A DNA stretch of 37,442 bases, taken from NCBI GenBank assembly GCA_019261985.1, contig JAFAQY010000049.1, positions 1 through 37,442 of the forward strand. Reading direction: 5' to 3'. The position numbers and the translations under genes are program-made. Source of the stretch: Bryobacterales bacterium. Lineage in GTDB: Bacteria > Acidobacteriota > Terriglobia > Bryobacterales > Bryobacteraceae. The notes beneath the pieces are model-generated. The model made no database searches and had not been told where the DNA came from. It saw nothing but the letters and a program-made list of their open reading frames with translations. This document shows, piece after piece, positions 5,228-28,733 of this stretch (positions within the stretch are counted from its first letter, which is position 1; every line of letters begins with the position of its first letter).

Positions 5228-5269
5228 GGCGGGTTGGCAACCCGCCGCAGGTTTAGCAACCTGCCCCAC
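5228..5269 (+). repeat. Double-hairpin dispersed repeat (copy 1)
   Basis: Two adjacent perfect hairpins, GGCGGGTT-GGC-AACCCGCC (5228-5246) and GCAGGTT-TAGC-AACCTGC (5247-5264), followed by CCCAC. Copies with different but still pairing arms occur at 9604-9694, 9862-9902, 19075-19115 and 28626-28733. This one lies inside the ABC operon, between the first ATPase and the first permease. Confidence 0.9.
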
Positions 5270-5284
5270 ATGGCTTGTGCCACT

Positions 5285-6196
5285 TTAATTCTCCATAGCC
5301 TTCATAAAAATCTCTTCGAGCGTGTCGCGCCGATAGTTCAGCCGGCGGAACTGCACGTCCCTGCCGGAGGCCCATTGATAGATCTCGCGCAACTCGAAGC
5401 CCCGCGGCAATACCATTCGGAAACGGCCCAAACCCAAAGGCGTACACTCGCAGCCGAGCCCTGCCATGGCGTCGGCGAATCCCTGATGATGTCCGTAAGC
5501 TTCCAATTCCACGAAGCGCTTATTCGCCCGGCGCTCCTCTTCGATATTGCAGGACTGCACAACGCGGCCCTGCTTCAAAATCAGCACCTCTTCGCAGGTT
5601 TCCTCCACGTCGCGCAGCAGGTGCGAACAGATCAGCAGATGCATCTCGCCCGAATCGCGCATCTCCTGGATCAGGCGAATCATCCGCTGCCGCGCGGGAG
5701 GATCGAGGCCGTTTGTCGGCTCGTCCAAAATCAGCAGCTTCGGCCCATGCACGATAGCCTGGGCGAGCTTCGCAAGCTGCTTCATTCCAAGCGAGTAGGC
5801 GCCTAACAGCCGGTACCGCGCTTCGCCGAGTCCCACATAAAACAGTGCCTCATGCGCGCGCTCCAGCGCCGCGTCCGGCGGCAGGCCGGAAAGTTCCCCC
5901 ATCATGCGCACGAACGAAACCGCCGACATATTCGCAACCAGTGCATCGTTTTCAGGCATGTAGCCGATAAGCGAGCGGATTTGCGGAAGTTCGCGGCGGA
6001 TATCGCACCCCAGCACCCGCCCGGTTCCGGACGTCGGCGGCACGAAGCCGACCAGCGTCTGGATCAGCGTCGACTTGCCGGCCCCATTCGGCCCCAGAAG
6101 GCCGATGGTGCGGCCGGATAACGAAACATGCAGATCAGTAAGGATGTCCCGCCGGCCGAAGCGGACGCCAAGCCCATCTAGTTCCAGTACAGCCAT
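5285..6196 (-). CDS. ABC transporter ATP-binding protein (ABC-2 exporter type)
   Basis: A 303-residue nucleotide-binding subunit. It has Walker [10 protein letters not shown] (Lys41), a Q-loop-like YMPENDALV, a degenerate signature YSLGMKQ, Walker [13 protein letters not shown], and the switch His in [13 protein letters not shown], followed by a C-terminal accessory domain. This degenerate signature type is common in exporters with two-helix-bundle ABC-2 partners. Only 2 bp separate its ATG from the stop of the upstream GPxTPEGK protein gene, so both are probably on one transcript. It likely energises the permease at 4305-5165. Confidence 0.9.
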
Positions 6197-6198
6197 TG

Positions 6199-6984
6199 CT
6201 AAGAAGTACGTTTCAACTTAACATTTGTTCCAGGCAAGCGATCTCCCGCAGCCCGGCGCCGAAAGGCGTCCGTCGCGGGGTTACCGCAGTCTCCAGAAAC
6301 TCGCGGCAAAACTCCAGGGGGGTAAATTTCGCCTGTCACGGCAGCTATAAGCGAGTTTGCAAGCTCACCGTTGGCCCCACCGGCCGTGGGGCGCTCTGCG
6401 TACCGGATTTCATTGTCGACCGCGGCGACGGGGTAATCCGAGCACGGCGGGTTCGGTTCGTTCGGAAATTTGGATTTTTCGCAGGTAGTGGATACTGTCT
6501 CGGGACGCTGTCCGTCTGCTGCTCGGGTGGCTCGGAGCTTGAGTAAGGAGTTCAAGGCACGAGTGTACTGCCGGTCGAAAGCAACTTCGTAGCGGAGCAG
6601 CAGGTCCAGCGCGCGGGAGTTGTCACTTAGGTCGCGGAAGGCGGTGGTGGCGCGAACCAGCGCACGCGAACCGGTTTGCCGGGCCATTTCGATATCAAAT
6701 TGGGCTTTTTGAATGCCGAGGATGCGAAGGTACCGCCAGCGGGCGGCGGCCATGGTTTCGACGAGCGCGGTTTCGACGGAGTTGCGGGGCTGTAGGTCCG
6801 CGGTTAGCTCCGAGAGCAGCGCGTCGAAGCGCTCCTGGGATTCGCCCTCGAGCACGATAGTGCTGCTGAGGAGGCCGTGGCGGGTGGCATTGCGGGCGGA
6901 GCGTTCTTTACCCTCGGGCGTTACAGGTCCGTGGGAGAGGGCGCCGTTAGCACGGGCGAATTGGGCTTTAACTGGGGAACTCAT
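6199..6984 (-). CDS. Hypothetical protein of the acidobacterial GPxTPEGK family
   Basis: A 261-residue soluble protein. The N-terminus carries [18 protein letters not shown] followed by [10 protein letters not shown], a motif I recognise from a multi-copy family of uncharacterised proteins in Solibacter-like acidobacteria and planctomycetes. Residues about 50-150 are helical and charged; the last ~110 residues are low-complexity and include KFPNEPNPP, also usual in this family. No catalytic motif is visible and I assign no function. The gene ends 2 bp before the first ABC ATPase and may be the first gene of that operon, or an independent insertion that now provides its promoter. Confidence 0.65.
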
Positions 6985-7089
6985 GCGGCAGAAGAATATG
7001 GGCGAGAAAATTTAAGCGCGGCCAGATGAAATCCGAAGTGATTGAAGAAACAGCCAAAATTTAACGCGTAAATTTATGAATTGCGCAAA

Positions 7090-7107
7090 CCCGCCACACA
7101 GGGCGGG
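7090..7107 (-). terminator. Hairpin downstream of the TonB-like pseudogene
   Basis: CCCGCC-acacag-GGCGGG forms a 6-bp GC stem in the 200-bp gap between the hypothetical gene and the TonB-like pseudogene. On the minus strand only a short TTT follows, so it is a weak terminator candidate or a worn copy of the local palindromic repeats. Confidence 0.3.
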
Positions 7108-7187
7108 GCAGCCTCTACCGGCTCTGATCGGAGCGACGCGCGTCAAGCCGTTTCGCAATACGCGATTGAATTTGTGAAACGGTGTAC

Positions 7188-8099
7188 TTAGTAAACGAGG
7201 TTCGCGCCGAAATTGGGAGTCTCGCCCCGCTGAATCGTGGCGGTCCAGGAATCCAGACTCGGTCCGCCCATCTTCCAGAAACTCCGGCATTCGGCGAAGT
7301 ATTCCAGCACCACGCTTTTTTCGCCCCGTTCCAAAAGCTGCTTGGCGAGCGTTACGTTAGGGCCGAAGCTGTTCAGTTGCGGGCTTCCCGGCGTCTTGCC
7401 GCCTGAAGTATCCCGCTTGCACCAGGTTGCCGCTCTGGAGCGCAACAAGACCGAGCACCGAGTTGCCATCGTGGATCGCGTTGCCGTAAAACCAATCCTT
7501 CGGGTCTTGAGCCCCGCTCAGCAGTTCACCCGCGTAGGTTGAAGCTTTGTCCAGCGCGCCGGCTTGCCATGCCACGCCGCTTTCGCCAATTTCGCGAGCT
7601 CGTAAGAGCGCTCCTCATCCGTCGCGGCGGAACTGCTTTGCTCCAGGTCGGCCAACACATCCGCCGGCGATCTTGGGAAGTGACTCTTTAGCGCGTTGAG
7701 ACGCTGTGCCGCAGCGAATTCTTCCCCCGGATTCAAATTCGGTGCGGGAGGCTTTCCGTTGACCATAAAAATCAGCAACTCATCCGTATAGGCGGGAACC
7801 GCTTGGCCGTTGCGAACCACTGGAGGGAAGCGCCACTGTTCCATCGCCGCAATGGCCTGCTTTCTTAAAACTTCGGGCCCGGTTAGAGGCTCGATGCTGA
7901 TTACGCGTCCATCCTTGTCCACGAGAACCAGCGCGTGTACCATCCCGCCAACATCGCCGGAAGCCGGCTCGACACGCTGGAAGGGTGTGAGTTGCGGAAC
8001 ATAGGCCTGGGCGATGGTCGTGCCCTGGCCAGGAAGCGGTAACAACGGCGTCACCGTTAAAACCAACGCCGCAACCAGTCGTGAACGGGTGGCTTGCAT
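7188..8099 (-). pseudogene. Frameshifted TonB C-terminal-like protein
   Basis: The reading frame begins at ATG 8099 with a signal peptide (MQATRSRLVAALVLTV). It continues through a TonB C-terminal-like module (VDKDGRVISIEPLTGPEVL, then AIAAMEQWRFPPVVRNGQAV) and then shifts frame twice. The first lesion is a 5-bp tandem duplication (TGCCATGCCA on the plus strand, 7565-7574); removing one unit restores KAAWQAGALDKA. The second lies near 7395-7415, after which the third frame gives GGKTPGSPQLNSFGPN and the natural end PNFGANLVY at 7188. The three frames joined match a family of exported acidobacterial proteins with a TonB-like module and helical repeats. An in-frame ATG at 8132 adds only 11 residues. 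It is broken either biologically or, for the second lesion, possibly by sequencing error. Confidence 0.8.
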
Positions 8100-8177
8100 G
8101 GCGTCATTATACTTTTGTTCAAACTCACGCAAAACGGAGCGCTGCGCGCCGTTTGCTCGTAATCCTTACGTAAAAGC

Positions 8178-8259
8178 ACCGCTCCCTTGCGGTCGCGGCT
8201 CGGAACCGGCTTTGTGGATATCAGCGCCGGTCACCGAGCCACGACTGCAAGGGAGTGGT
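8178..8259. repeat. Long imperfect inverted repeat
   Basis: The arms 8178-8210 (ACCGCTCCCTTGCGGTCGCG...) and 8226-8259 are near-perfect reverse complements over about 33 bases, with a few mismatches and a 15-base loop. It lies in the 290-bp gap between the radical SAM gene and the TonB-like pseudogene, where I see no gene. The form suggests a non-autonomous mobile palindrome (MITE- or REP-like) distinct from the GGC-loop double hairpins. Confidence 0.75.
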
Positions 8260-8425
8260 TTTGTGACATTTCTCTACCGGCCGGCAAGTGGCTGTAGATA
8301 CGTAACGCCGATTGTGAGCCGCGCGCGCAAGCAAGCGGTTTTTGGAGATTTCTCCCGCAGCCTGCTAGGATTTGTCTCGGCTTGGGGAATGCATTACAAA
8401 ACTGACCCTGAGCGCCAGAGCTTGC

Positions 8426-9562
8426 CTACCGGAGCAGCCGCAAGACGATCGCTCCGAGGCGATCACGGCGCTTCGAATCCTGCAAAAACATCCAATCAAG
8501 CATTCGGACGGACGCGGGAGGCTGCCAGGATGGATCGCGCTCCTTGCGCCGCTCGATGATGCCGGCGAGAGTTTCTCGAGGGCGTTGGCGGAAGGAATCG
8601 AGCATGGCAGTTTGGTGCACGCACGAAATCGTGCAAAACGGCGCACAGCTTTTTGGCGCGGCCGATTCACGAATGATGTCCTCGCGCGTGTAATTATCGA
8701 GCGGAATCCCGGGCCGCCCGCGCTGCTGCGAGCAATAGTGTACCAAGCCGTCCTCACAAATGTAGAGAAAGCGGCCGCCGGCGGAGCAGTGCCAGTCGTT
8801 TTGTAAGCCTTGGATCAAATTCCTTTGAAAGGCGTCCAAATGGGCGAACGTGAACAATCCTCCGCCGAGCGCGAAGATGCGGTCATAAACGCCGCGCTGC
8901 TCGGAGTTCAGCGGCTGTAGCTGCCCGGCGCCGTCATGCAGCACACCCACGGTACTCGTGAATCCAAGGCCTCGCGCTCGCGTGGTGATTTCAAACGCAT
9001 CTTCCGGGCGCCGTATGTCGCTGCCCAGAACGGAATTGATCGTTACATCGAATTCAGCATGCTCGGCGAGCCATTCCAGCTTGCGATCGAGCACTTTCAA
9101 GCTTTTCTTTGAAACCGCGTCAGGCTGGACGTTGTCGATGCTGATCTGAAGATAATCGAGCCCGGCGCGATTCAAAGCGCGGATGCGATCGGGCGTGAGC
9201 AGATAGCCGTTCGTAATCAGCGTGCAAATGGAGCCATGCGACCGGACGCGCTGAATCAGCGCATCCAAATCGGGATGCAGCGTGGGTTCGCCCCCGCTGA
9301 AGGTGATGATGCTTGTGCCAAGCTCGGCGAGCCGGTCTATCCGGCGCAGCATCAGGGGAAGCGGCACGGGATCTGACGTTTTGTCGAACTCATTGCAGTA
9401 GGTGCAAGAAAGATTGCAGCGCCGCATGGGCACGATTTGCGCAAGAATCGGATGGCTCGCGGAAGCCATGGCGTTCGCGAACATGCGCGCTTCGCGCCAA
9501 CGCCGGTGCAGCTTGCGGATTTTCCGCACGCTTTTATTATCGTGGGGCAGGTTGCCCAGCAT
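8426..9562 (-). CDS. Radical SAM protein with Cys-rich SPASM-like C-terminus
   Basis: A 378-residue protein with the radical SAM cluster motif CNLSCTYC (Cys49, Cys53, Cys56). It also has the SAM-binding FSGGEPTLHPDL, the TNGYLL strand and LDYLQISIDN typical of the partial TIM barrel. The C-terminal third has scattered cysteines (HCSAGG, YICEDG, HYCSQQ, then KSCAPFCTISC), as in SPASM/Twitch domains that hold extra Fe-S clusters. Such enzymes modify peptides or small molecules; no precursor peptide gene is visible nearby, so the substrate is unknown. The first residues (MLGNLPH) are encoded by a 15-bp fragment identical to the end of the double-hairpin repeat. A GTG at 9529 could be the older start. 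Both neighbours are broken genes. Confidence 0.85.
   Translation of the reverse strand: MLGNLPHDNKSVRKIRKLHRRWREARMFANAMASASHPILAQIVPMRRCNLSCTYCNEFDKTSDPVPLPLMLRRIDRLAELGTSIITFSGGEPTLHPDLDALIQRVRSHGSICTLITNGYLLTPDRIRALNRAGLDYLQISIDNVQPDAVSKKSLKVLDRKLEWLAEHAEFDVTINSVLGSDIRRPEDAFEITTRARGLGFTSTVGVLHDGAGQLQPLNSEQRGVYDRIFALGGGLFTFAHLDAFQRNLIQGLQNDWHCSAGGRFLYICEDGLVHYCSQQRGRPGIPLDNYTREDIIRESAAPKSCAPFCTISCVHQTAMLDSFRQRPRETLAGIIERRKERDPSWQPPASVRMLDWMFLQDSKRRDRLGAIVLRLLR
9542..9556 (-). repeat. Fragment of the double-hairpin repeat inside a coding start
   Basis: On the minus strand this reads GGCAACCTGCCCCAC, identical to the right end of the element at 28719-28733. It falls within codons 3-7 of the radical SAM gene, so part of that N-terminus may derive from repeat sequence. 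Confidence 0.6.
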
Positions 9563-9603
9563 GCGCGCATGGCCTGCGGCTCACCCAAATTCATGAAAAG
9601 CCC

Positions 9604-9694
9604 AAGTGGGGCGGGATTCAGGCTGCGGCGGACTTGAGTCCGCCAGCGGGCGTGGCGGGCTGAAGCCCGCCGCAGGCTAAAGCCTGCCCCACTT
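9604..9694. repeat. Compound multi-hairpin repeat (copy 2)
   Basis: It is bounded by inverted ends AAGTGGGGC (9604-9612) and GCCCCACTT (9686-9694). Inside are three perfect hairpins: GGCGGACT-TG-AGTCCGCC (9627-9644), GGCGGGC-TGAA-GCCCGCC (9654-9671) and GCAGGCT-AA-AGCCTGC (9672-9687). The right half has the layout of copy 1 with entirely different inner arm sequences. It lies in the divergent gap between the radical SAM gene and the SMP-30 pseudogene. Confidence 0.9.
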
Positions 9695-9861
9695 TGGGTT
9701 TTCGACCAACCGCGCTATAGTTCCACCATGAATCTACTCGATTGCATCTGCGTCGCAGCGGCCGTTGGAGTCGCGGTAAGCCCGATGATCTTACGCCGCC
9801 CGCGGCGATCATGTAGCGGGCGGTCTAATCGGCTTGGCCGGGAATTGTACGAAGCCGCCCA

Positions 9862-9902
9862 GCGCGGTTGGCAACCGCGCGCAGGATGGCATCCTGCCCC
9901 AC
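9862..9902 (+). repeat. Double-hairpin dispersed repeat (copy 3)
   Basis: GCGCGGTT-GGC-AACCGCGC (9862-9880) and GCAGGAT-GGC-ATCCTGC (9881-9897), then CCCAC. It lies between a signal-peptide-like start at 9728 and the ATG at 9923, just upstream of or within the 5' end of the SMP-30 pseudogene. Confidence 0.9.
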
Positions 9903-9922
9903 AGCCGGTTCACGCTTGCGTG

Positions 9923-11000
9923 ATGGCTGCCCTGGGAGTGATGATCATTTTTCTGCCGTTGGCCCGCGCGGCCGCACAGAGTCCGGTCGCCCGTCCCTTC
10001 AAGGTAGTCCGCCTGGACCCTGCGCTCGATTCCATCATTTCGGCGGATGCGAAGATCGAAATCCTCGGGGAGCATTTCGGGTTGACGGAAGGTCCGGTAT
10101 GGGTTACGCAAGGCGATAGCGGATACCTGCTGTTTAGCGATTGCGCTGCAAATGTGATCTACAAGTGGAAGGCGCTCCGCTGTCGGTTTTTCTGGAGCGC
10201 AGCGGGTATACGGGAACGAATGTACTGAATGTCGGTCAGCAGACAATCGCGGGCCGGCTGGCGATCCTGCTGATCGGCTCCAACGGCTTAACGCTAGATC
10301 CGCAGGGCCGCTTGATCGTCACCGCGATGGCGGATCGCAATGTGGTGCGCCTGGAAAAGGACGGCACGCGCACACTGCTGGCGGACCGCTACGAAGGAAA
10401 GGGTTTAGCGGACCCAATGACATTGTCGTGAAGTCCGACGGAGCGGTGTATTTTACGGACAGCGTGAACGGTCTTCGCGGCGGCGCCGATGGCCCCGCGC
10501 GCGAATTGTTTTACAACGGCGTATTCCGCATCAAGGACGGCAAAGTTAGTCTTCTGGACAGCGATCAAAATCATCCTGGCGAATTCCCCAACGGAATCAC
10601 ATTCTCGCCCGACGAGAAATACCTGTACGTGACGGGTGGCTTCGGCAAGACGTTTCGCTACGACGTCCAGCCCGATGGAATCATTGCCAACCGCAAGCTG
10701 TTCATCGAAGCGGGGAATGACGGAATGAAGACGGATCGCCAAGGCAATCTGTACGCGGTTAATGCCGTGGGCCCGGGCGAGGTATGGATCGTGTCGCCGG
10801 AGGGAAAGCACATGGGAACGCTGCAGCTTCCTCAAATCACGGGCGAGCCCCGGCCGAGAATCTGCGCTTCGAACCTTGCTTTCGGCGATGCCGACGACAA
10901 GAGCCTGTTTATCACGGCTTGCACCCACTTGTTTCGCGTGCGGCTCGATGCACCGGGAATCCGCCCCGGCCCTAGCGCAGTGAACACGCCTCGGCGGTAG
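9923..11000 (+). pseudogene. Frameshifted SMP-30/gluconolactonase-type beta-propeller
   Basis: Three consecutive frames together give an exported six-bladed propeller of the SMP-30/gluconolactonase/LRE family. There is a signal peptide after ATG 9923 (MAALGVMIIFLPLARAAAQ), then GLTEGPVW (first metal-ligand region), SGSNGL-type and GPNDIVVKSDGAVYFTDS motifs, and FPNGITFSPDEKYLYVT. Frame is lost near 10165-10175 and near 10397-10404; each lesion is explained by one missing base in a short A/G run (GGAAGGC and GAAAGGGTTT), and adding one base restores the family motifs. Enzymes of this family hydrolyse lactones using a bound divalent metal. A second possible start at 9728 with its own hydrophobic stretch is separated from the rest by repeat copy 3. 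Genuine decay or sequencing error are both possible. Confidence 0.8.
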
Positions 11001-11073
11001 CTAAACGATCACTCAGCCGCTGACGAGCAGGGGCAAACGGTCGGAACGCCGCCCGCCCACATAGCGACTACTC

Positions 11074-11103
11074 TTGACAGAATCATCGATATCCGCACAT
11101 ACT
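11074..11103 (+). promoter_or_regulatory. Candidate sigma70 promoter of the padR-permease operon
   Basis: TTGACA (11074-11079) is followed after 18 bases by CATACT (11098-11103); TACTAT at 11100 with a 20-base spacer is an alternative. Direct TACTA repeats at 11100 and 11117 flank the expected transcription start and could be operator half-sites for the PadR protein. The leader before ATG 11125 would be about 15 nt, with no clear ribosome binding site. Confidence 0.5.
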
Positions 11104-11124
11104 ATATCTGCTTTTGTACTACTT

Positions 11125-11490
11125 ATGTCTTCTAAAGACCGATCGCCCGCGTATAATCTGACGCCCCTTTCGCCGGCCGTCTTCCATATCCTTTTGTCCC
11201 TTGGGGAGGGCGAACGCCATGGATATGCCCTGAAGCGCGAAATTTCGCTGCGCACCGGCGGCCGGCTGAAGCTCGGTCCCGGCGTCCTTTATGGGTCCAT
11301 CAATAAGATGCTGAAGCTTGGGTTGATCGAAGAGTCGGATGCCCGGCCCGACCCGCACCTTGACGATGAGCGCCGCCGTTATTACCGGATCACCGTCTAC
11401 GGGCGCAAGGTCGCGCAGGCGGAAGCGGCTCGCATGCGGGACCTGGTCAAACTGGCAGCGGCAAGGTTTGGAGCACCCGCACATGCCTGA
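11125..11490 (+). CDS. PadR-family transcriptional regulator
   Basis: A 121-residue winged-helix protein. LSPAVFHILLSLGEGERHGYALKREI is the PadR recognition region, followed by GPGVLYGSINKMLKLGLIEES and the wing segment ERRRYYRITVYGRKVAQAE; the last ~30 residues form the dimerisation helix. PadR proteins repress adjacent transporter operons and release DNA on binding small ligands or by other signals. An upstream TTG at 11074 in the same frame is the -35 box of the candidate promoter, so ATG 11125 is the start. The gene overlaps the following ADOP permease gene by 8 bp, the standard arrangement in Solibacter-type genomes, and it probably autoregulates the pair. Confidence 0.9.
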   Translation: MSSKDRSPAYNLTPLSPAVFHILLSLGEGERHGYALKREISLRTGGRLKLGPGVLYGSINKMLKLGLIEESDARPDPHLDDERRRYYRITVYGRKVAQAEAARMRDLVKLAAARFGAPAHA

Positions 11491-15516: not shown

Positions 15517-15521
15517 AGAGC

Positions 15522-18536: not shown

Positions 18537-19022
18537 ATGATCAGAACGAAATATCTGCTGCTTGCAGGCGCGGTTGCGCTTGTTTCGACCAGCGCGTTTG
18601 CGCAGCTTCCGAGTTCGAAGGTCCTTACGCTCGATGTTGCCCAGGCGATCGCACAGGAGACGCTGGCCAAGTGCCGCGCGGACGGATATAAAGTTACCGT
18701 ACTGGTAGTCGATGGCCTGAATGCGCCGAAGGCGATGGTTCGCGACGATGGCGCAAGCGCTTCCACGACCGAAGTGGCCAAGATGAAGGCAACAGCCACT
18801 ATGCTCTACAACCGCCCGTCGGGCCCTGCGCAGCCTCTGCCTGCCGGCCAGACAGCGCCTCCCGCGACCATTCCGGGAACGATCAATGCTCAGGGCGGAG
18901 TCCCGATCAAGGTCGGCGATGTGACCATTGGCGCGGTTGCGGTGAGTGGGGCTCCGGGTGGGGATAAAGATGCGGCGTGCGCTAGTGCGGCGCTGGCTAA
19001 GCTGGCCGATCGATTGAAGTGA
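18537..19022 (+). CDS. Exported heme-binding protein, HbpS/GlcG family
   Basis: A 161-residue protein with a signal peptide (MIRTKYLLLAGAVALVSTSAFA, cut near residue 22). The GlcG/HbpS fold is shown by LTLDVAQAIAQETLAKCRADGYKVTV, VVDGLNAPKAMVRDDGA, the helix TTEVAKMKATATMLYNRPSG, then GGVPIKVGDVTIGAVAVSGAPGGDKDAACA near the end. Homologues bind heme or participate in redox sensing; the exact role is open. AAGGGGG seven bases before the ATG is a strong ribosome binding site. The last 26 bp overlap the convergent YqgE-like gene because that gene has run on through a repeat. Confidence 0.88.
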   Translation: MIRTKYLLLAGAVALVSTSAFAQLPSSKVLTLDVAQAIAQETLAKCRADGYKVTVLVVDGLNAPKAMVRDDGASASTTEVAKMKATATMLYNRPSGPAQPLPAGQTAPPATIPGTINAQGGVPIKVGDVTIGAVAVSGAPGGDKDAACASAALAKLADRLK

Positions 19023-19704
19023 AGTGGATTAACCCGGCGACTGCCAATCGCGCCCGTTGTATAATGCCCGCGCAGGCGGGTTGGCAACCCGCCGCCGGTT
19101 GGCAACCGGCCCCACGATTTTTTACAACGTGTTCGTCCTTGCGGCGGTTTAAGCGGTCCCACAGCGTATCGGGGTCGGCGTCGAACACGGTTTTGGCGTC
19201 TCCCGAGAGGACGGACCATGCGCCGGCTTCAATCTCCATTTCAAGCTGCCCCGGACCCCAGCCGGCGTATCCCATAAAGAACCGCAGCATGGCGCCCGAG
19301 GCGCCATCCGCTAGCGCCTCCTTCAACGCTTTTTCATCCAGCAAGGCGGAAACATCGCGTGAAATTTGATGCACACCTTGCTTCCTTGCATTGGTCCGGT
19401 AGAGCGCCAGAACACTATCGTTTTCAACCGGACCTCCCGAGAATGCGAAGTCCTTGCGGTTAGCCGCTTCTTTTATACCCTTCAGAATCTGGGAAACGGG
19501 CGTATCCGTCTCCCGGTTGAGGATTAAACCCACAGCGCCGTGTTCGTCATAGGTGATCAAATAGACAACCGTTTGATCGAAATTGGGGTCTTTCAGATCC
19601 CTATCGGCCACGAGGATTTTGCCTGGCGCCAACTCATCTTGCGCAAAAACGGGACAAATAAATAAAAGGCCAACCACCAAGCACGCGAGACTCAGCCACC
19701 GCAT
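18997..19704 (-). CDS. Exported YqgE/AlgH-family protein with repeat-derived C-terminus
   Basis: A 235-residue protein. After an N-terminal signal peptide (MRWLSLACLVVGLLFICPVFA), residues 26-190 match the YqgE/AlgH (DUF179) fold: LAPGKILVADRDLKDPNFDQTVVYL, HGAVGLILNRET, FSGGPVENDSVLALY and FMGYAGWGPGQLEMEI. Bacterial YqgE proteins usually start directly at the APG motif and end near 185-195 residues. Residues about 197-210, including GCQPAAGCQPA, are encoded by double-hairpin repeat copy 4, and the tail then runs to a stop inside the end of the HbpS gene. The molecular function of YqgE is unknown. It is divergent from purH with a 45-bp gap. Confidence 0.87.
   Translation of the reverse strand: MRWLSLACLVVGLLFICPVFAQDELAPGKILVADRDLKDPNFDQTVVYLITYDEHGAVGLILNRETDTPVSQILKGIKEAANRKDFAFSGGPVENDSVLALYRTNARKQGVHQISRDVSALLDEKALKEALADGASGAMLRFFMGYAGWGPGQLEMEIEAGAWSVLSGDAKTVFDADPDTLWDRLNRRKDEHVVKNRGAGCQPAAGCQPACAGIIQRARLAVAGLIHFTSIDRPA
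19075..19115 (+). repeat. Double-hairpin dispersed repeat (copy 4), within coding sequence
   Basis: GGCGGGTT-GGC-AACCCGCC (19075-19093) and GCCGGTT-GGC-AACCGGC (19094-19110), then CCCAC. It lies in the 3' part of the YqgE-like gene on the opposite strand, where it encodes the GCQPAAGCQPA segment. A loose relative of the flank of copy 5 (TTGCCAATCGCGC) occurs at about 19043-19053. Confidence 0.9.
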
Positions 19705-19749
19705 GGTTCGATTCTCGCTCTTTTATGCGCGTGTGACAATAGGGATTCC

Positions 19750-21309
19750 ATGCCTCAAATCCGGCGCGCCCTGTTAAGCGTGACAGATAAGACGCGGATC
19801 GTGGAGTTTGCGCGGAACCTGTCGGAGCTGCACGTAGAGATCGTTTCTACGGGGGGGACTTTTCGCGTCCTGAAGGATGCAGGCATCGCGGCTCTCAGGG
19901 AAGTGGCGGACGTGACGGAGTTTCCCGAAATGCTGGACGGCCGCGTCAAAACTCTGCATCCGCGCATCGCCGGGGGCATTTTGGCCATCCGTTCGAATGC
20001 GGGACACATGCAGGCCCTTTCCGCGCACGAAATTCCTCCGATCGATTTGGTCGCGGTGAATCTTTACGATTTCGGGCGCGTGGCGGCGAAAAAGGACGCG
20101 CCGCTCGAAGAGCTGATTGAAAATATCGACATCGGCGGACCGACGATGATCCGCGCCGCGGCAAAGAACTGGCAGGATGTGGCGGTTGTGACTTCGCCTT
20201 CGGATTACGACAGCATTGTCGCCGAAATCCACGCCGGTGGAGGAGCGCTTTCGCGGGAGACTACGTGGGGGCTGGCGAAGAAGGCGTTCTCGCTCACAGC
20301 CGGATACGACCGCGCGGTGGCTGCGCGGCTTGCGGAGATCGAAATAGCCGGGGACAAGTCCCCATCGTCAGCCGCGCCAAAGCTGCCTGCGATGCTGGAT
20401 ATCCGCGCTCCCCGCAGGCTCGCGCTGCGGTATGGCGAAAATCCGCATCAATCCGCCGCCCTGTACGTGGATGGAACGCCGGGTATCGCGACGGCGGAGC
20501 AGCTTCACGGTCCGGAGCTTTCCTATAACAATCTGGTGGATCTCGACGCAGCCTGGCAGCTGATCTGCGAATTCGATGCGCCGGCATCGGCAATCATCAA
20601 GCACACGAGTCCTTGCGGGTGCGCGGAAGGCGCGACGCTGGCCGAAAGTTATCGACGGGCATTGGAGGCCGATCCGATTTCGGCATTCGGCGGGATTCTG
20701 GCATTCAATCGCGAAGTGGACGGCGAGACGGCGAATGAAATCGTGAAGCTCAAGGCGGACGCAATCGCCGCTCCGGCGTATTCGGCCCAGGCTCTCGATA
20801 TTTTACGAGCGCGGAAGACCGCTCGCGTGCTGCGGGTGGAAGCGGGCGAGCCTGGCCTGATCGTCAAATCGATCGGCGGAGGTTATCTCGCCCAAACTCC
20901 GGACGTGCACCGCCTGATGCGCTCGGGTCGCCGCGTCGCCACCTGGCGCGCGCCGGGTGAAGAAGAATGGATCGCGCTCGAGTTTGCGTGGAAAGTGTGC
21001 AAGCACGTGAAGTCGAATGCGATTGTGTATGCGCGCGCCGGACAGATGATCAGCGCCGGGGCGGGCCAGACCAGCCGCGTGGATTCGGTGAAGGCCGGCG
21101 CGATGAAGGCGATTCTGCCATTAGAAGGGACGGTGGTCGCCTCCGACGCCTTCTTCCCCTTCCCGGACGGAGTGGAGGAAGCAGCGCGGCATGGCATTAC
21201 CGCTGTAATTCAGCCCGGCGGGTCAGTCAAGGATTCGGATGTTGTTGCCGCCGCGAATCGTTTGAACCTCGCGATGGTGTTCACGGGCGTGCGCCATTTC
21301 CGCCATTAG
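19750..21309 (+). CDS. purH: Bifunctional AICAR formyltransferase / IMP cyclohydrolase (PurH)
   Basis: A 519-residue enzyme for the last two steps of de novo purine synthesis: AICAR plus 10-formyl-THF gives FAICAR, then cyclisation gives IMP. The N-terminal MGS-like IMP cyclohydrolase domain shows RRALLSVTDKTRI, STGGTFRVLKDAGI, EMLDGRVKTLHPRIAGGIL and LYDFGRVAAKKDAPLEELIENIDIGGPTM. The formyltransferase domain has RYGENPHQSAALY, the catalytic Lys-His in IIKHTSPCGCA, SAFGGILAFNREVD, the FFPFPDGVEEAARHGI segment, IQPGGSVKDSDVV and the terminal TGVRHFRH. Length and motifs are complete. It stands alone between the divergent YqgE-like gene and the VWA genes, as a housekeeping gene. Confidence 0.98.
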   Translation: MPQIRRALLSVTDKTRIVEFARNLSELHVEIVSTGGTFRVLKDAGIAALREVADVTEFPEMLDGRVKTLHPRIAGGILAIRSNAGHMQALSAHEIPPIDLVAVNLYDFGRVAAKKDAPLEELIENIDIGGPTMIRAAAKNWQDVAVVTSPSDYDSIVAEIHAGGGALSRETTWGLAKKAFSLTAGYDRAVAARLAEIEIAGDKSPSSAAPKLPAMLDIRAPRRLALRYGENPHQSAALYVDGTPGIATAEQLHGPELSYNNLVDLDAAWQLICEFDAPASAIIKHTSPCGCAEGATLAESYRRALEADPISAFGGILAFNREVDGETANEIVKLKADAIAAPAYSAQALDILRARKTARVLRVEAGEPGLIVKSIGGGYLAQTPDVHRLMRSGRRVATWRAPGEEEWIALEFAWKVCKHVKSNAIVYARAGQMISAGAGQTSRVDSVKAGAMKAILPLEGTVVASDAFFPFPDGVEEAARHGITAVIQPGGSVKDSDVVAAANRLNLAMVFTGVRHFRH

Positions 21310-21323
21310 AAAAATTTAAACAT

Positions 21324-21332
21324 TGGTATACT
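21324..21332 (+). promoter_or_regulatory. Candidate extended -10 promoter of the VWA operon
   Basis: TGGTATACT is an extended -10 element (TGN-TATACT) in the 40-bp gap between purH and the first VWA gene. The upstream DNA is AT-rich but has no clear -35. Transcription would start about 10 bases before ATG 21350. Confidence 0.45.
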
Positions 21333-21349
21333 GAGGCCAGGGTGCGGGT

Positions 21350-23321: not shown

Positions 23322-23332
23322 CCCGGCAACGA

Positions 23333-23548
23333 GTGATCGCATTTTTGTGGCAGGCGACCAGAGGCTACCGCCTCAGGCCGTGGCGCAGTCCCTACCTGCT
23401 TTGGCGCATTGAGACGTATTGGGGCTGGCACGCCGAAAAGATTACTGCCCGCCAGTTCTTCTCGTTTGTGTGGCAGCACCGGGGGGAGCTGTTGAGGTTC
23501 CTGCGCTGGGCTGGCAGGATGCGGGCGGAAATTGCTCGCGCTCGGTAA
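23333..23548 (+). CDS. Small conserved acidobacterial protein (ATRGYRLRPWRSPYL type)
   Basis: A 71-residue basic, tryptophan-rich protein starting with GTG 11 bp after the second VWA gene. It contains ATRGYRLRPWRSPYLLWRIETYWG and ends FLRWAGRMRAEIARAR. I recognise this pattern from short uncharacterised proteins of acidobacterial genomes. It has no signal peptide or clear membrane helix; Trp/Arg spacing suggests an amphipathic, possibly membrane-surface, helix pair. The stop lies 5 bp from the stop of the convergent racemase-like gene, leaving no room for a terminator. Function unknown; it likely shares the VWA transcript. Confidence 0.65.
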   Translation: MIAFLWQATRGYRLRPWRSPYLLWRIETYWGWHAEKITARQFFSFVWQHRGELLRFLRWAGRMRAEIARAR

Positions 23549-23553
23549 GCGCG

Positions 23554-24684
23554 TTAAATTGCGGATGGCGCGTTTATACTTTCCTGGCGCACCGTTACTT
23601 GGTTTAGAAAATCGAAATCGATTTCATAGCCGAAGCCGGGCGCTTCGGGGACGCGGATCGTGCCTTGCGGCGTTACTTCCACCTCGGGCCGGATCACATC
23701 CCGCTTCCAATACCGCTTGCTCGCCGAAACGTCTCCCGGCAGGACGAAGTTCGGCAGAGTGGAGAGCGCAATGTTATGCGTGCGTCCGATGCCGGATTCA
23801 AGCATCCCTCCGCACCACACCGGAATTCCGTGCGCCTGCGCGACGTCGTGCACGCGCTTGGCTTCATGGAATCCGCCGACTCTGCCCAACTTGATGTTGA
23901 TGATTCCGCAAGCGCGCATCCGAATGGCTTGCTCGGCGTGATGAGCGGTGCGGATGCATTCATCGAGACAAATCGGCGTCGATAGCTGGGCTTGCAGGGC
24001 TGCGTGATCGACGATCTCATCGTGGGCGAGCGGCTGCTCGATCATCATCAGATCGAATTCATCCAAACATTTCAGGCGATCCGCCTCAGCGAGCGTATAG
24101 GCGGAGTTGGCATCGGCCATTAGCCGGATTTTCGGAAACTCGCGCCGCACTTCACGGACGACGTCGACGTCCCAACCGGGCTTGATCTTCATCTTGATTC
24201 GCTGGTATCCGGCCTGGAGTTCCGTTTCGATCTTTTTCAAGAGCTGAGGAACCGAATCCTGAATGCCGATCGAAACTCCGCACGGGATCTCGGCGAACGC
24301 GCCGCCGCCGATGTGTTTGGCGAGAGGCAGTCCCTGTATGCGGGCTTCGAGATCCCACACCGCTGCCTCCACCCCGCCGCGCGACATGCGATGTCCGCGA
24401 ATGTGGTCCACTCGCGCGGCGAGATCCGCGGCGGTTTCGAAGCGGTGGCCCAGAATTCTCGGCGCGACGAAATCGCGCACGATGAGCCAGGCCGAGTCCG
24501 TCCACTCTTCGTTATAGAAGGGATTCTCGCCGCAGGTGACCTCGCCCCAGCCCGAAATCCCCTCCGAGCGAACTTCCACGATGATGATGCGCCGCTCCGT
24601 GGTCCGGCCGAAGCTGGTTTCAAAGAAGTGCACCAGCGGCATGCGGATCTTCCGCAACGCAATTTGTTCTATTCGGAGTGCCAT
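23554..24684 (-). CDS. menC: o-succinylbenzoate synthase / N-succinylamino acid racemase (enolase superfamily)
   Basis: A 376-residue enolase-superfamily enzyme of the MenC type 2 / NSAR group. The catalytic lysines are in RIKMKIKPG (Lys164, Lys166), the metal ligands are Asp191 (DANSAY), Glu216 (EQPL) and Asp241 (DEC), and the opposite base is Lys265 in NIKLGRVGG. The C-terminal SASKRYWKRDV segment is also typical. All catalytic residues are present. The family includes enzymes that make o-succinylbenzoate for menaquinone and enzymes that racemise N-succinylamino acids; sequence alone does not separate them. No other men gene is here, whereas a GNAT-type acyltransferase gene overlaps it by 16 bp, which favours the N-succinylamino acid role. 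The symbol denotes family only. Confidence 0.88.
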   Translation of the reverse strand: MALRIEQIALRKIRMPLVHFFETSFGRTTERRIIIVEVRSEGISGWGEVTCGENPFYNEEWTDSAWLIVRDFVAPRILGHRFETAADLAARVDHIRGHRMSRGGVEAAVWDLEARIQGLPLAKHIGGGAFAEIPCGVSIGIQDSVPQLLKKIETELQAGYQRIKMKIKPGWDVDVVREVRREFPKIRLMADANSAYTLAEADRLKCLDEFDLMMIEQPLAHDEIVDHAALQAQLSTPICLDECIRTAHHAEQAIRMRACGIINIKLGRVGGFHEAKRVHDVAQAHGIPVWCGGMLESGIGRTHNIALSTLPNFVLPGDVSASKRYWKRDVIRPEVEVTPQGTIRVPEAPGFGYEIDFDFLNQVTVRQESINAPSAI

Positions 24685-25403
24685 GGTCCCAGTAAATACT
24701 CTCCGTTTTCGGGCGATCGCTCGAAGCCAACCACAGCCAGCTCTTTCGAAAAGTGCTCCAAAAACTGTTCCCGCACGCGAGTCTGAATTTCACGCGCGCG
24801 CTTTCCGTCGCTGCGTTTAATCGCTCCGATGTCCGCCGGAATGGCGACACGAGCGAACACGTTGCCGTGGTCGATGGGCCGGCCCCCGAGCGCGTTTAGA
24901 ACTCGGGGATTCGCAAGCCACCATTCGGCGATGCAGCGGTCGGTAGGCAATCCGCCATGCAGAGGGCTGGTGGTTGCGCCGTATTGATTCGGCACGAAGC
25001 GGCGCACGATCGCGCCCAGCCGCTCGATATTAAAGTAGGCATTTTTAAGCTCCAGCGGATCGAAGGTCCACTCGACCAACTGGATGCCGCGCGCCAGCGC
25101 GTCCTCCCTCTGCGCCAGCTTGAGCATCCTTCCGACGCCCGCGTCGCGGTATTCGGCAAGCACTCCGAGCATGTGACTGTGAAGATAATTCTTTCCGGCC
25201 ACGGCGATTCCCGGAATGGCGAGGCAGAAGCCGATCATGCGCTCGCCATCATACGCCCCCAGCGCCTGGCCGCCCACCTTCAGCGCGGTAACGAATAATC
25301 GCACAGGCAGAAGCTCGACTTCATCGAAGCCCCATATGACGCGCTGAAGCTCCACCGCCTGGGCGAATTGCGCGTGCTCGGTGAGCGGGCGTACGCGGAT
25401 CAC
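24669..25403 (-). CDS. GNAT-family acyltransferase (COG3375-like)
   Basis: A 244-residue predicted GNAT enzyme. The N-terminal half carries VIWGFDEVELLPVRLFVTALKVGGQALGAY and MIGFCLAIPG. It is followed by the acyl-CoA binding region LHSHMLGVLAEYRDAGVGRMLKLAQREDALARG, in which RDAGVG corresponds to the Q/RxxGxG/A loop, then LVEWTFDPLELKNAYFNIERLGAI. This arrangement belongs to a COG3375-type family often found beside MenC/NSAR genes, for which N-succinylation of amino acids has been shown in Geobacillus-type pathways. The start is GTG 25403, overlapping the mazG stop (GTGA). The gene is coupled to both neighbours. An M20-type desuccinylase, the third step of that pathway, is not in the window. 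Confidence 0.8.
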   Translation of the reverse strand: MIRVRPLTEHAQFAQAVELQRVIWGFDEVELLPVRLFVTALKVGGQALGAYDGERMIGFCLAIPGIAVAGKNYLHSHMLGVLAEYRDAGVGRMLKLAQREDALARGIQLVEWTFDPLELKNAYFNIERLGAIVRRFVPNQYGATTSPLHGGLPTDRCIAEWWLANPRVLNALGGRPIDHGNVFARVAIPADIGAIKRSDGKRAREIQTRVREQFLEHFSKELAVVGFERSPENGEYLLGPWHSE

Positions 25404-26203
25404 TCGTCTTTCTCGGCCCGCTTGGCTTCCTGCCACAAGTTCTCCATTTCGTCCATCCCGGCTTCGTTGAGCGTTTTGCCCGCCTTGGCGAGTCCGTTTT
25501 CGATGTGAGCGAAACGCCGCCGGAATTTTGCGTTGGTTTTACGCAAAGCCTGCTCGGGATCGACTTTCAGGAACCGGGCGATGTTTACGACCACGAACAA
25601 CAGATCGCCGATTTCGTCCTCGGCTTCCGGATGCTCGCGCGCCGCTTCTAATTCCGCAAGTTCCTCGCGGAGCTTATCGACCACCTGATTGACGTTTTCC
25701 CAATCGAAGCCCGCCTTAGCGGCGCGCGAAGCAATTTGCTGAGCTTCCACCAGCGCGGGAAGCGACCGCGGCACGCCCGCAAGCAGGCCTTTGGGACGAG
25801 GTTTTTCGGCGGCCTTGATCTCGTCCCAGCGTTTCGTCACGTCGGCGGCGGTTTTTGCGACTGCATCTCCAAAAACGTGCGGATGCCGGCGGATCAGCTT
25901 GTTATTAATCGCGTCGACAGAATCGCCAATATTGAAGCGGCCTTCTTCGGAGGCCATCTGCGCAAAGAAGACGGCTTGCAGCAGCAGGTCGCCGAGCTCG
26001 TCGGCGAGCCCATTGAAGTCGCGCGCATCGATAGCGTCCATGACTTCGTAGGTCTCCTCCAGCAGATATGGCTTGATGGTGTCGAAATTCTGCTCGCGAT
26101 CCCAGGGGCAGCCTTCCGGCGAGCGGAGGCGCGCCATGATTTCGACCAGGCGCGCGAAGCGTTCGCCTACAGACGACGGATCCGGCTTGGCGGGAGGAGA
26201 CAT
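25400..26203 (-). CDS. mazG: Nucleoside triphosphate pyrophosphohydrolase MazG
   Basis: A 267-residue MazG protein that hydrolyses (d)NTPs to the monophosphate and pyrophosphate, removing aberrant nucleotides. The N-terminal domain has LRSPEGCPWDREQNFDTIKPYLLEETYEVMDAI and DELGDLLLQAVFFAQMA, giving the EExxE...ExxD metal site. The C-terminal domain repeats it: GFDWENVNQVVDKLREELAELEAA and DEIGDLLFVVVNIARFL, then KTNAKFRRRFAHIE. Length is normal for the two-domain type. Its ATG lies 1 bp after the stop of the lipase gene and its end overlaps the GNAT gene by 4 bp, so it is inside a compact operon of otherwise unrelated functions. Confidence 0.95.
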   Translation of the reverse strand: MSPPAKPDPSSVGERFARLVEIMARLRSPEGCPWDREQNFDTIKPYLLEETYEVMDAIDARDFNGLADELGDLLLQAVFFAQMASEEGRFNIGDSVDAINNKLIRRHPHVFGDAVAKTAADVTKRWDEIKAAEKPRPKGLLAGVPRSLPALVEAQQIASRAAKAGFDWENVNQVVDKLREELAELEAAREHPEAEDEIGDLLFVVVNIARFLKVDPEQALRKTNAKFRRRFAHIENGLAKAGKTLNEAGMDEMENLWQEAKRAEKDE

Positions 26204-26204
26204 A

Positions 26205-28538
26205 TCATTGCACGGCGATGGTCGCGGTTGCGGGGCTGCTGGCGCCGTTTATCGTGATGACCAGCGGCTGCGCTCCGGACGGAGTGTTCGGCCCGAGTTG
26301 AATATTTAGCTGCGAAATTCCATCGACCAGACCGGGCGCGGCGCCGGAGAATGTGACGGTCGCCGGGACTCCGCCTACGGTTGCGGTGGTCGCCGGCAGA
26401 TATTTGAGCGCCAATCCGTTCACGCCGCCGGTTGTGCCGCCCGGGTTGGTTTGTCCGCCGCCGGTGAAGTAGATCGTGAGGTTGGAACTTGGTGGTGCAG
26501 GATGCGAGGAGTTGTTGAAAGTGTAGTCCGTGTAGAACGCGATGGCCTGTCCAGTGCCGGTTGAGTCCATCGTAAAGATGCCGGGAACCGTGGGCGCGAC
26601 CGCGAATTTCGTGCCCTGCGAGCTATTGCCGTAGTAAGAAACTATCATCTCTACCTGAGTCCACCCGGCGATTTCATATGGCACCATCGCGTTTACTTGA
26701 CTGTCGGAGGCATAGAGGATTGGTGCGGCAACGCCCGCGAAAAAAACGCGGACCCCTGCGAGTGCAGTGTCCACCGTTCCCGTCGCTGGATCTATCGAAA
26801 ATAGGGCACTCGTTTGCGGTCCGAGAGCGATCCCTTTAATCGCGATCATCTCGCCTGGCGCGATTTGTCCCGGCGCGGAGGTGGCGTTGTTCACGACTGA
26901 AGTCACCACCAGTTGCCCTCCCACGGGATTAGCTAGAAATGAAATCGCGTCGCCGCCCGTCGACGCCATCAGCTCGAGATTCACAACTCCTCCCTGTGGC
27001 GGCGGCTCCACGGTTACTGACGTGTCAGTCCACACTAAGACGGTAAGGGCCGTCGTTCCCCAAAGGACCCCGCAACTCGGACATCGGGGTCCAAAGCCCG
27101 ACCCGCTAATCACTATGGGCCCCTGTGTGAAAACAACCAGCGCATCTCCTGACCCGGCCGGCCCCACAGAATCGATGCGCGGCCCTTGCTTGCAATAGTA
27201 GACCGAATAGTGTCCTGGCGGTGCGGTGAAGGGACCGCAGTTTAAGTTGTGCAGTGACGTGCTTACCGCCTGGAAGTTGCCAGTGCCGCTGACAAATTCG
27301 TTAAAAAAAAAGCTTCCCGCTGAGCCACCAAGCGCTAGGGCTGTGTCACCAAAAGACACCTGCGTCAGATCGGTAATCGGGGCGCGGTTGGCCTGAACCG
27401 CCGCGAAATAAATCCCACCTTGTTGAGACAAGTATTTGTCCTGGCTGGGAGGCGTCCCGAGCGATTTCCAGTCCGGAGTATCCGCCAGAAACGAGCGCAC
27501 GATCATTGCCGATAAGTGCGAAGGGCTGTTAATATCGGCGATGCCTTGGCCGGAGCATGCCACCGCAAAAACAATCAAGCCGCTCGGTGTCACGTGACAG
27601 TAGGGTACGATCCGGGTGCGTTCATCGGTGCGGGCGAAGCCGAGCGACGCGCTGGTTAGCGAGACCAAGCCATCGCTTGCGTTGGACTGCGGCTGCGCGC
27701 CCGCGTTTCCTATGATGGCGAGCGCATCTACACCGCGTAGGTCATCACGGCGCTGATTCCACGTCGCCAAGCTCCAAAGGAAGCTGCTGCCTGGGAGCAT
27801 TTCCGAAGTCTGGGTCGAGCTGAACAGATGAGCTTGGAACGATCCGAAATTCGGCGTCGCAAGTTCGATGAGCTTGCGGACCTTCAGTAACAGAGGCGGG
27901 AAGGTCGCGCCGGTGCTTCGGAGGCCCGCGAGATAGGCTCGCGCGATTAACCCACCCATGCTGTGCGCGACAAGATCGACCTGGGTCACCGCGGTTCCAT
28001 CGGTGAACGTGAGCGTGGAGATGTAGGTATTAAGCTGCGCCGCGAGCGTTTCAATCGGCACGTCTTGACCGTAAACGCAATTATTGAAAAACAGGACCGG
28101 GATGCCGTCCGACTGAAGCAACGACGCGAGCTGGCCGAACGTGCCCGCCGATCCTGCTACAGTGCTGTCGGGATTGCTCGGGCAGGAGAGCTGCCATCCG
28201 TTCATCAGAATCACCGGGGTCTTGCCCGTGGATTGAACGGTGACTGCATCTATCGTCACTGTCATTATCGATGCGATCACGCGTCCGGCTTCGTTGCGGC
28301 CTTCTATGAACAGACGATAATTGCCGCGTGGGGTCGCGGGCGGAACTGTGATGCTGACGTCGCCGCTCTCGTCTAGTCGGACCACGGGAGGAAATTCTAT
28401 GGGAGGCTCCGTGCGAACCGTGGTTATTGTGCTGAGGCGCGATTCCAAAGGCGCCACTCGCGCTTCTCCCGCGGTCATTCGGAGGTTCTGAGCGTGAGCG
28501 AATGCCGCGGCCAGGAGTGCGAATAGGAGCAGCCTCAT
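26205..28538 (-). CDS. Secreted alpha/beta-hydrolase (lipase-like) with IPT/TIG and Solibacter C-terminal domain
   Basis: A 777-residue exported protein. It has a signal peptide (MRLLLFALLAAAFAHAQ), a beta-rich N-terminal domain (residues ~18-100), and a lipase domain with nucleophile Ser193 in VDLVAHSMGGLIAR. An acid candidate lies in NASDGLVSL and a His candidate in NSPSHLSAM. The IPT/TIG-like domain is PRIDSVGPAG...IVISGSGFGP, and the C-terminal ~200 residues are a TIGR03437-like Solibacter domain (VVNNATSAPGQIAPGEMIAIKG; ILYASDSQVNAMVPYEIAG). Likely an extracellular esterase or lipase. The frame is open to 28754, but those 72 codons run through hairpin repeats, so ATG 28538 is the start. 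It is 1 bp from mazG. The leader is a long hairpin. Confidence 0.88.
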   Translation of the reverse strand: MRLLLFALLAAAFAHAQNLRMTAGEARVAPLESRLSTITTVRTEPPIEFPPVVRLDESGDVSITVPPATPRGNYRLFIEGRNEAGRVIASIMTVTIDAVTVQSTGKTPVILMNGWQLSCPSNPDSTVAGSAGTFGQLASLLQSDGIPVLFFNNCVYGQDVPIETLAAQLNTYISTLTFTDGTAVTQVDLVAHSMGGLIARAYLAGLRSTGATFPPLLLKVRKLIELATPNFGSFQAHLFSSTQTSEMLPGSSFLWSLATWNQRRDDLRGVDALAIIGNAGAQPQSNASDGLVSLTSASLGFARTDERTRIVPYCHVTPSGLIVFAVACSGQGIADINSPSHLSAMIVRSFLADTPDWKSLGTPPSQDKYLSQQGGIYFAAVQANRAPITDLTQVSFGDTALALGGSAGSFFFNEFVSGTGNFQAVSTSLHNLNCGPFTAPPGHYSVYYCKQGPRIDSVGPAGSGDALVVFTQGPIVISGSGFGPRCPSCGVLWGTTALTVLVWTDTSVTVEPPPQGGVVNLELMASTGGDAISFLANPVGGQLVVTSVVNNATSAPGQIAPGEMIAIKGIALGPQTSALFSIDPATGTVDTALAGVRVFFAGVAAPILYASDSQVNAMVPYEIAGWTQVEMIVSYYGNSSQGTKFAVAPTVPGIFTMDSTGTGQAIAFYTDYTFNNSSHPAPPSSNLTIYFTGGGQTNPGGTTGGVNGLALKYLPATTATVGGVPATVTFSGAAPGLVDGISQLNIQLGPNTPSGAQPLVITINGASSPATATIAVQ

Positions 28539-28543
28539 TCCTC

Positions 28544-28733
28544 GCCTGCGGGCGGGTGCTGAAGCACCCGTTGCAGGCCAACGTTGCCATGCGCAACGGC
28601 GCACAATCGTGCATGCAAGTCGTTTGTGGGGCAGGATGCTATCCTGCGCGCGATTGCCAATCGCGCTGGGCGACTTTGCGCACGGCCGACCAGGCGGGTT
28701 GGCAACCCGCCGCAGGTTGGCAACCTGCCCCAC
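28544..28733. repeat. Hairpin cluster with head-to-head double-hairpin repeats (copy 5)
   Basis: The 28626-28733 part is bounded by GTGGGGC and GCCCCAC and holds four perfect hairpins: GCAGGAT-GCT-ATCCTGC (28631), GCGCGATT-GCC-AATCGCGC (28648), GGCGGGTT-GGC-AACCCGCC (28693) and GCAGGTT-GGC-AACCTGC (28712). The 28544-28578 part is one long stem, GCCTGC...CGGGTGC-TGAA-GCACCCG...GCAGGC, five bases from the lipase start; two smaller hairpins lie between. The whole intergenic space between the amino-acid permease and the lipase consists of these structures. Confidence 0.9.

Follow-up and report, generated by a model that had tools for sequence, protein, structure and literature searches.

Twin-hairpin repeats of a probable REP/RAYT system in a Bryobacterales genome

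Hairpin units and dimers in the window

Contig JAFAQY010000049.1 of a Bryobacterales bacterium (GenBank assembly GCA_019261985.1) was analysed from position 1 to 37,442, and this whole 37,442-nucleotide stretch is referred to here as the window. It carries five loci, between positions 5228 and 28733, built of short hairpins that are very probably twin-hairpin repetitive extragenic palindromes (REPs) of an acidobacterial REP/RAYT system, in which they would be moved by a cognate REP-associated tyrosine transposase (RAYT). All five, with the stem-stem-CCCCAC layout given for them in a preliminary description of the window, are present as reported. On one strand the units terminate in CCCAC; starting from the complementary tag, GTGGG, each shows a foot hairpin of 7 bp that is immediately followed by a second hairpin of 8 bp, and the general layout can be written as GT[AG]G, a 7-bp hairpin and then an 8-bp hairpin. 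The claim that every arm pairs perfectly holds for 13 of the 14 hairpins in the five loci, the remaining one (9611-9626) being eroded (4/7).

Three of the loci are lone units of family I, all on the minus strand. The unit at 5228-5269 has a GGCG-type end and comprises the second hairpin (5228-5246, 8/8 pairs), the foot hairpin (5247-5264, 7/7) and the tag (5265-5269, GTGGG on the minus strand); its DNA fold reaches -16.5 kcal/mol, and none of 200 shuffles was as low. The unit at 9862-9902, with a GCGC-type end (hairpins 9862-9880, 8/8, and 9881-9897, 7/7), is preceded by a spacer-like ...GCCGCCCA. The third, at 19075-19115, is again of the GGCG type (19075-19093, 8/8, and 19094-19110, 7/7; fold z-score -2.98, two of 200 shuffles as low) and lies within the reading frame of an AlgH-like gene, outside the AlgH-like domain (residues 36-187 of 235). 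The frame of this gene (18997-19704) continues through the unit, which gives a GCQPAAGCQPA tail.

The other two loci are the head-to-head composites that had already been recognised as such, neither being assigned to one strand; the bounds of the first had to be corrected to 9606-9692 and those of the second, 28626-28733, stand. The first is a REP dimer of family II with loops TC, TG, GA and AA, tags at 9606-9610 and 9688-9692, and hairpins at 9611-9626 (the eroded left foot), 9627-9644 (8/8), 9654-9671 (8/8) and 9672-9687 (7/7). The second is a complete family I dimer, or REPIN (REP doublet forming hairpins), made of a GCGC-type half (28626-28666; hairpins 28631-28647, 7/7, and 28648-28666, 8/8), a spacer (28667-28692) and a GGCG-type half (28693-28733; hairpins 28693-28711, 8/8, and 28712-28728, 7/7).

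Copies, arm pairing and dimer ends across the genome

In the 6.49-Mb genome each strand carries 265 copies of the word CCTGCCCCAC, against 4 and 6 of the reversed control word. The equal strand counts look like a coincidence, and in a 1.53-Mb sample of the genome, which includes the window, they were 71 and 68 (controls 2 and 1). Circularity in testing the pairing was avoided by picking units by one stem and then testing the other. At 129 places of the sample picked by a perfect stem 1 (the 8-bp one) followed by CCCAC, stem 2 was paired 7/7 in 102, 6/7 in 17 and worse in 10, whereas re-dealing the 3' arms among those places gave a mean of 22.8 perfect stems and a maximum of 37 in 1000 shuffles. 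Picking by stem 2 and CCCAC yielded 134 places, with stem 1 paired 8/8 in 99, 7/8 in 14 and worse in 21; at 20,000 random positions the same stem was paired 8/8 in 6 and 7/8 in 44. Some of the 10 and 21 places that fail by more than one pair are probably not elements at all. These two cross-stem tests, together with the RAYT-flanking elements picked by GTRGNGC that are described below, rule out chance palindromes.

The arms themselves are diverse. The 99 fully paired units of all groups contain 13 different stem-1 arms and 30 arm combinations; 82 of these units belong to family I, the largest group, in which stem 1 ends in TT, and they alone show 7 stem-1 arms and 20 combinations. In the GTAG-type REP family of the same genome the arm is nearly fixed, GGACAAGC being present in 42 of 47 paired copies found by a search that held the outer four bases constant. 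The preliminary description had set its covariation proposal against the case of copies falling into a few fixed-sequence families; the 30 combinations among 99 units counter that case, which is borne out to the extent that the unit groups match different RAYT genes and that the GTAG family hardly varies. We also observed foot hairpins with a tandem repeat of the inner arm and loop (L010:3520, L015:18875, L019:10279 and L034:14323; for example GCAGGCTGAAGCCGGGCTGAAGCCTGC), which look as if they had arisen by slippage or template switching. Furthermore, there is a minor group with G-rich loops (for example AGCCGGCC / GCGGACC) at L015:6267, L018:8862, L029:17127 and L032:3506; no RAYT neighbour of this group was found in this genome, and in other genomes units like these are seen flanking RAYTs (L093, L102, L105 and L141).

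Units avoid long open reading frames (ORFs), 34 of 104 lying within them against 78% of random places, where the ORFs were selected by length and are not curated genes. This avoidance and the stable folds are what a transcribed RNA element would lead one to expect, its stems being kept paired by a role as terminator, attenuator or protector of 3' ends, and such roles have been hypothesised for REPs in passages of PMC3733652. However, an Rfam search of the window matched a tRNA only, with no known RNA at the elements, and no T-run follows CCCAC, immediately after which A is found in 52% of cases and T in 29%, with no T excess farther on. As such a role explains neither the tag nor the position of the units beside RAYT genes, we regard it as extremely improbable as the basis of the elements, and it could be a secondary use of them.

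The sample contains 25 dimers, with a gap of 24-28 nt in 22 of them, and a family I dimer is formed by two head-to-head units with a spacer of about 26 nt, about 108 bp in total. In each of the 21 family I dimers that were classified, one end is GCGC or GGCC and the other is GGCG or AGCG, whereas random pairing of the ends gives 10.8 unlike-ended dimers of 21 and at most 19 in 20,000 draws. Because the spacers share a consensus, descent from a single unlike-ended dimer would be the simplest reason for this, and selection against long palindromes, which is proposed for REP heterodimers in passages of PMC3733652, may maintain it. Eight spacers of 26 nt show 59% identity, and in 20 spacers, some of them incomplete, there is a weak indication of a third hairpin (mean -2.6 against -1.9 kcal/mol, 2 of 300 single-base shuffles as low). 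The dinucleotide CA lies directly inside the second hairpin, as in intact dimers, in 34 of the 50 lone units listed out of 61 in two classes, and many lone units have the appearance of REPIN halves left by decay. At L074:8317 and L074:8541 there are two near-identical composites of 91 bp, 224 bp apart, each without one GGCG-end hairpin.

Since their ends differ, family I REPINs fold nearly as well locally as into one long hairpin. The long hairpin leads local folding by a mean of 6.6 kcal/mol over 20 dimers, a value that would be 34.5 if the ends were alike, and no mismatch between the ends of a dimer was found beyond their class (-6.6 for real pairs, -7.7 for re-paired ones, standard deviation 4.5). 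In an alignment of 18 of the 20 dimers, 97.6% of the cells of the four local hairpins were paired, their covariation was 0.110 against 0.033 in shuffled alignments (0 of 500 as high) and 18 cells had changed on both sides, compared with 4.3 after shuffling. In contrast, the long hairpin showed in the same alignment neither covariation (0.044 against 0.041; 126 of 500 shuffles as high) nor excess pairing (461 of 500 shuffles). Covariation supports the local hairpins and not one long hairpin, and this contrast bears on the question of the active REPIN fold, which was raised by the two alternative folds drawn for REPINs (supplement legend of PMC3116915).

RAYT genes and their flanking hairpins

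A co-occurring Y1 transposase, whose search had been proposed in the preliminary description, is present, with the elements immediately beside it. Of the five Y1_Tnp matches in the genome, four lie between inverted REP-like repeats, and each has a repeat type of its own. The RAYT gene at C47:54070-54624 is flanked by family I units of the GGCC type, that at C52:8893-9432 by family II units (one with a mismatch), that at C52:10538-11068 by twin hairpins with a GTGGA tag (the repeat copies are seen within C52:10478-11148) and that at C119:21084-21641 by a single-hairpin GTAG repeat. The fifth match, at C47:106142-106303 (L009), has an internal stop, and no tagged hairpin was seen beside it. The tag-arm word GTGGAGCAGGCT of the C52:10538-11068 family has 35 and 43 copies on the two strands (control 0 and 1), and that of the GTAG family has 74 and 87 (control 1 and 3).

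Both of these additional families have left traces in the window. A single-hairpin GTAG-type REP, GTAGGACAAGCTTCAGCTTGTCC, of the family flanking the RAYT at C119:21084-21641, lies on the minus strand at 30246-30268, and at 28743-28754, also on the minus strand, the family flanking the RAYT at C52:10538-11068 is represented by its tag and first arm (GTGGAGCAGGCT), beside which no intact hairpin was seen. At 9542-9562, at the start of a radical SAM frame (8426-9562), GTGGGGCAGGTTGCCCAG looks like a decayed unit of which the tag and the first arm are left.

Judged from their sequences, the proteins are RAYTs. One of them, of 185 amino acids, matches the Pfam domain Y1_Tnp with 35.6 bits (cut-off 23) and no other Pfam domain, and its nearest solved structure is 4er8 (TnpA-REP; E 3.3e-6). 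The NCBIfam model REP_Tyr_transpos (NF047646) is matched by all 20 of its aligned relatives (E<=0.001), in which H95, H97 and Y154 are invariant and N158 is nearly so, corresponding to an HUH motif and one tyrosine followed by a Y-x-x-x-N motif (YIELN).

Relatives of this RAYT (E<=0.001) were found in 67 of 101 genomes of the family, and in the best 80 of 552 confirmed stretches the named genomes are mostly Bryobacterales, Bryobacteraceae, Solibacter and other Acidobacteriota. Where the flank was long enough, GT[AG]G was followed by a perfect twin hairpin on the upstream side of 51 of 106 RAYT matches and on the downstream side of 51 of 107, and a tagged hairpin of any kind was present upstream of 75 and downstream of 66; 352 control pieces of the same loci held no perfect twin hairpin and five tagged hairpins of any kind. 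Tagged hairpins occur on both sides of 51 of 113 matches. When 102 flanking elements were picked by GTRGNGC alone, a selection free of pairing bias, the foot was paired 7/7 in 71 and the second stem 8/8 in 64, compared with 3 and 1 of 200 controls. A double element accompanies 59 of 100 distinct RAYTs, and hairpin number tracks the RAYT tree (7 changes against 19.7 when shuffled). Moreover, 19 of 44 genomes with a close RAYT are rich in the tag, against five of 57 without one. The word CCTGCCCCAC itself is patchy among 150 genomes drawn from the family (344/337 against control counts of 4/7 in G259, 274/218 against 8/19 in G245). None of 198 genomes drawn from the phylum approached the 265+265 copies found here, and some were moderately above control (for instance, 46/40 against 4/5 in G028); a phylum-wide spread was rejected on the counts of this draw. 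The twin-hairpin form is present in many genomes of an acidobacterial family.

The compensatory change put forward in the preliminary description is real within the genome, and it is also strong when RAYT-linked units from different genomes are compared. Among 43 distinct units beside RAYT genes, 99.0% of the foot-helix cells were paired (77.2% when shuffled), and the covariation of this helix was 0.630 against 0.187 (standard deviation 0.020; 0 of 500 as high); for both helices together the values were 95.0% and 0.586 (0.180 when shuffled), lowered because MAFFT misplaces some second stems. The pairing percentages of the 43 units are inflated because the search for them required pairing. Five foot-helix pairs had changed on both sides, which is no excess, as 45 of 500 shuffles were as high. 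When the upstream and downstream units of one RAYT were compared in 47 RAYTs, drawn from the same pairing-requiring search and carrying the same bias, 65 pairs had changed on both sides and 9 on one. Arm identity was 0.72 between units of one RAYT and 0.46 between RAYTs, and RAYT distance correlates with arm distance (Mantel r 0.39; 0 of 2000 permutations). Loops appeared alike within RAYT clades when judged by eye on the tree.

Paired arms that vary in this manner could also arise if one arm were remade from the other by template switching or gene conversion within each hairpin, with neither structural selection nor mobility being needed, and quasipalindrome correction by template switching does occur in bacteria. 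This would suit the lone units, which keep their pairing while the spacers between halves differ (the 59% identity of the eight 26-nt spacers), and the tandem duplications of inner arm and loop at L010, L015 and L019. However, it leaves unexplained the strand-specific tag, the flanking of RAYT genes, the correlation with RAYT distance and the hardly varying arms of the GTAG family within this genome, and the eroded hairpin and the stems one pair short (17 of 129 and 14 of 134) indicate that arms are not always remade. Nothing observed requires arm copying, and we consider it very unlikely to account for the elements.

A REP/RAYT interpretation and its place among known systems

We return to the reading of the elements as REPs moved by a cognate RAYT, whose mechanism we infer from passages of the TnpA-REP and IS200/IS605 literature (PMC8266576, PMC6006769). 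The RAYT, with its HUH motif and one tyrosine, would bind the units as folded single-stranded DNA, recognising the tag, the loop and the shape of the hairpin more than the letters of the arms, and would cut and rejoin the DNA, moving the element to new, mostly intergenic sites, so that the REPIN would behave as a non-autonomous mobile element. We propose that the arm letters change as compensated pairs because pairing is mainly what counts in the stems, and the published contacts to the tag, the loop and irregular positions agree with arms that are free but paired. The near-equal local folding of unlike-ended REPINs would help recognition and avoid the removal of long palindromes. A more specific version, possible and put forward tentatively, is that the elements form a REP subclass whose RAYT recognises two tandem hairpins by their shape, tag and loop, the arm letters being free; the two ends of each REPIN would be driven apart by selection against a single long palindrome, so that compensated arm change would be favoured beyond being tolerated.

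Several observations weigh against this interpretation. The RAYT adjoining family I units carries units of the GGCC type, while most copies are of the GCGC or GGCG type, and the REP_Tyr_transpos scores, 79.9 bits for the 185-amino-acid RAYT and 76.7 bits for a second protein, fall just below the curated cut-off of 80. Among the 100 distinct RAYTs, 22 have a single hairpin and 19 no element by the search used; tag richness is missing in 25 of the 44 genomes that have a close RAYT and present in five of the 57 that lack one; and in the four closest same-genus genomes drawn the word counts are near control. Regarding covariation, just 5 of 30 pairs in the dimer alignment change on both sides, with 7 pair types against 6.1 when shuffled, and the foot helix has 12 pair types against 12.4 (436 of 500 shuffles as high). 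For the window dimer at 28626-28733, the long hairpin is the fold of lowest predicted energy. Finally, neither movement nor a clean empty site was seen: the dimer at 28626, which lies next to a permease, has no such element as its counterpart in the 330 nt behind that permease in six same-genus genomes, in which the gene order differs there (a seventh permease locus, L201, stops at the contig end and is outside the six).

If the more specific version is right, the recognition code of this single-strand mobile element would reside in the fold and the loop, with many natural compensated variants in one genome. The REP/RAYT interpretation itself extends such systems to a tandem-hairpin form. With RAYT-element pairs by the dozen, and with hundreds of copies in a single genome, many of them compensated variants, the contributions of arm letters, loop, tag and fold to RAYT recognition become testable. 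What looks new is the second hairpin in tandem, together with the covariation data, the cases in figure 9 of PMC3733652 being known by their legend alone, and in the open-licence literature no paper on tandem-hairpin REPs in Acidobacteria was recognised by title. Passages of PMC3174227 mention many short repeats in Solibacter and do not mention REPs.

Two other acidobacterial systems have to be considered as the source of the elements instead of a strict REP/RAYT system. Passages of PMC6006769 give about 600 class 3 TnpA structures in Solibacter usitatus, an acidobacterial host with hundreds of structured copies, as here, and the TIRtrons or TIRYT systems (Di Nocera 2013; PMC3733652), reported in Koribacter and others, share with our elements the inverted repeats around a RAYT-like gene in Acidobacteria and, in a figure legend, "double palindromic TIRs" (terminal inverted repeats); some of the double palindromic repeats beside TIRYT genes in the legend to figure 9 could be of the same kind as the twin-hairpin units. 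Nevertheless, class 3 TnpA is described in those passages with a CnGA foot and a Y----Q motif, in contrast to the GT[AG]G foot and Y-x-x-x-N found here, and GGGGCAGG, by reading, does not fit the GGGGWSAS of TIRtrons (subclass 2.1), while the 185-amino-acid RAYT shows by Pfam the Y1_Tnp domain alone, with no C-terminal extension or helix-turn-helix-like domain. Membership in either system was rejected on these defining features, and such an origin appears unlikely to us.

The resemblance to REP/RAYT systems is closer. As in REPtrons, a palindrome with a variable stem has a GT[AG]G tag at its foot, there are hundreds of copies that avoid genes, and inverted copies lie on both sides of the RAYT gene, one type per RAYT. 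The preliminary description had taken freely varying but paired arms as a contrast to REP/RAYT, a contrast that fails because REPs are defined in print by a conserved GT(A/G)G tetranucleotide and a complementary region of variable base composition (passages of PMC3686654), and both complementary stem changes and head-to-head heterodimers are reported for them (passages of PMC3733652). RAYT-specific REP classes, head-to-head dimers, heterodimers and dimer remnants are likewise described in parts of PMC3116915, PMC3733652 and PMC6006769. A rule for REPs given in a passage of PMC6006769 (GTAG or GTGG, 0-2 nt 5' of a perfect stem of 7-20 nt with a loop of 2-5 nt) describes our foot hairpins as well, with GTGG, one G, a 7-bp stem and a loop mostly of 2-4 nt. 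It is the second 8-bp hairpin, directly behind the first, that departs from one hairpin per tag, and for this reason we call the elements a variant; the REP types described in the same source (short, bulged long and double-foot) differ from them in this tandem hairpin. The dimers resemble REPINs and heterodimers like bacterial interspersed mosaic elements (BIMEs) in having two inverted REPs and a spacer of fixed length, and unlike partners and lone remnants of REPINs are described in portions of PMC3116915 and PMC3733652. Unlike those REPINs, they carry two hairpins at each end, and it is these local hairpins, rather than the long one, that covariation backs.

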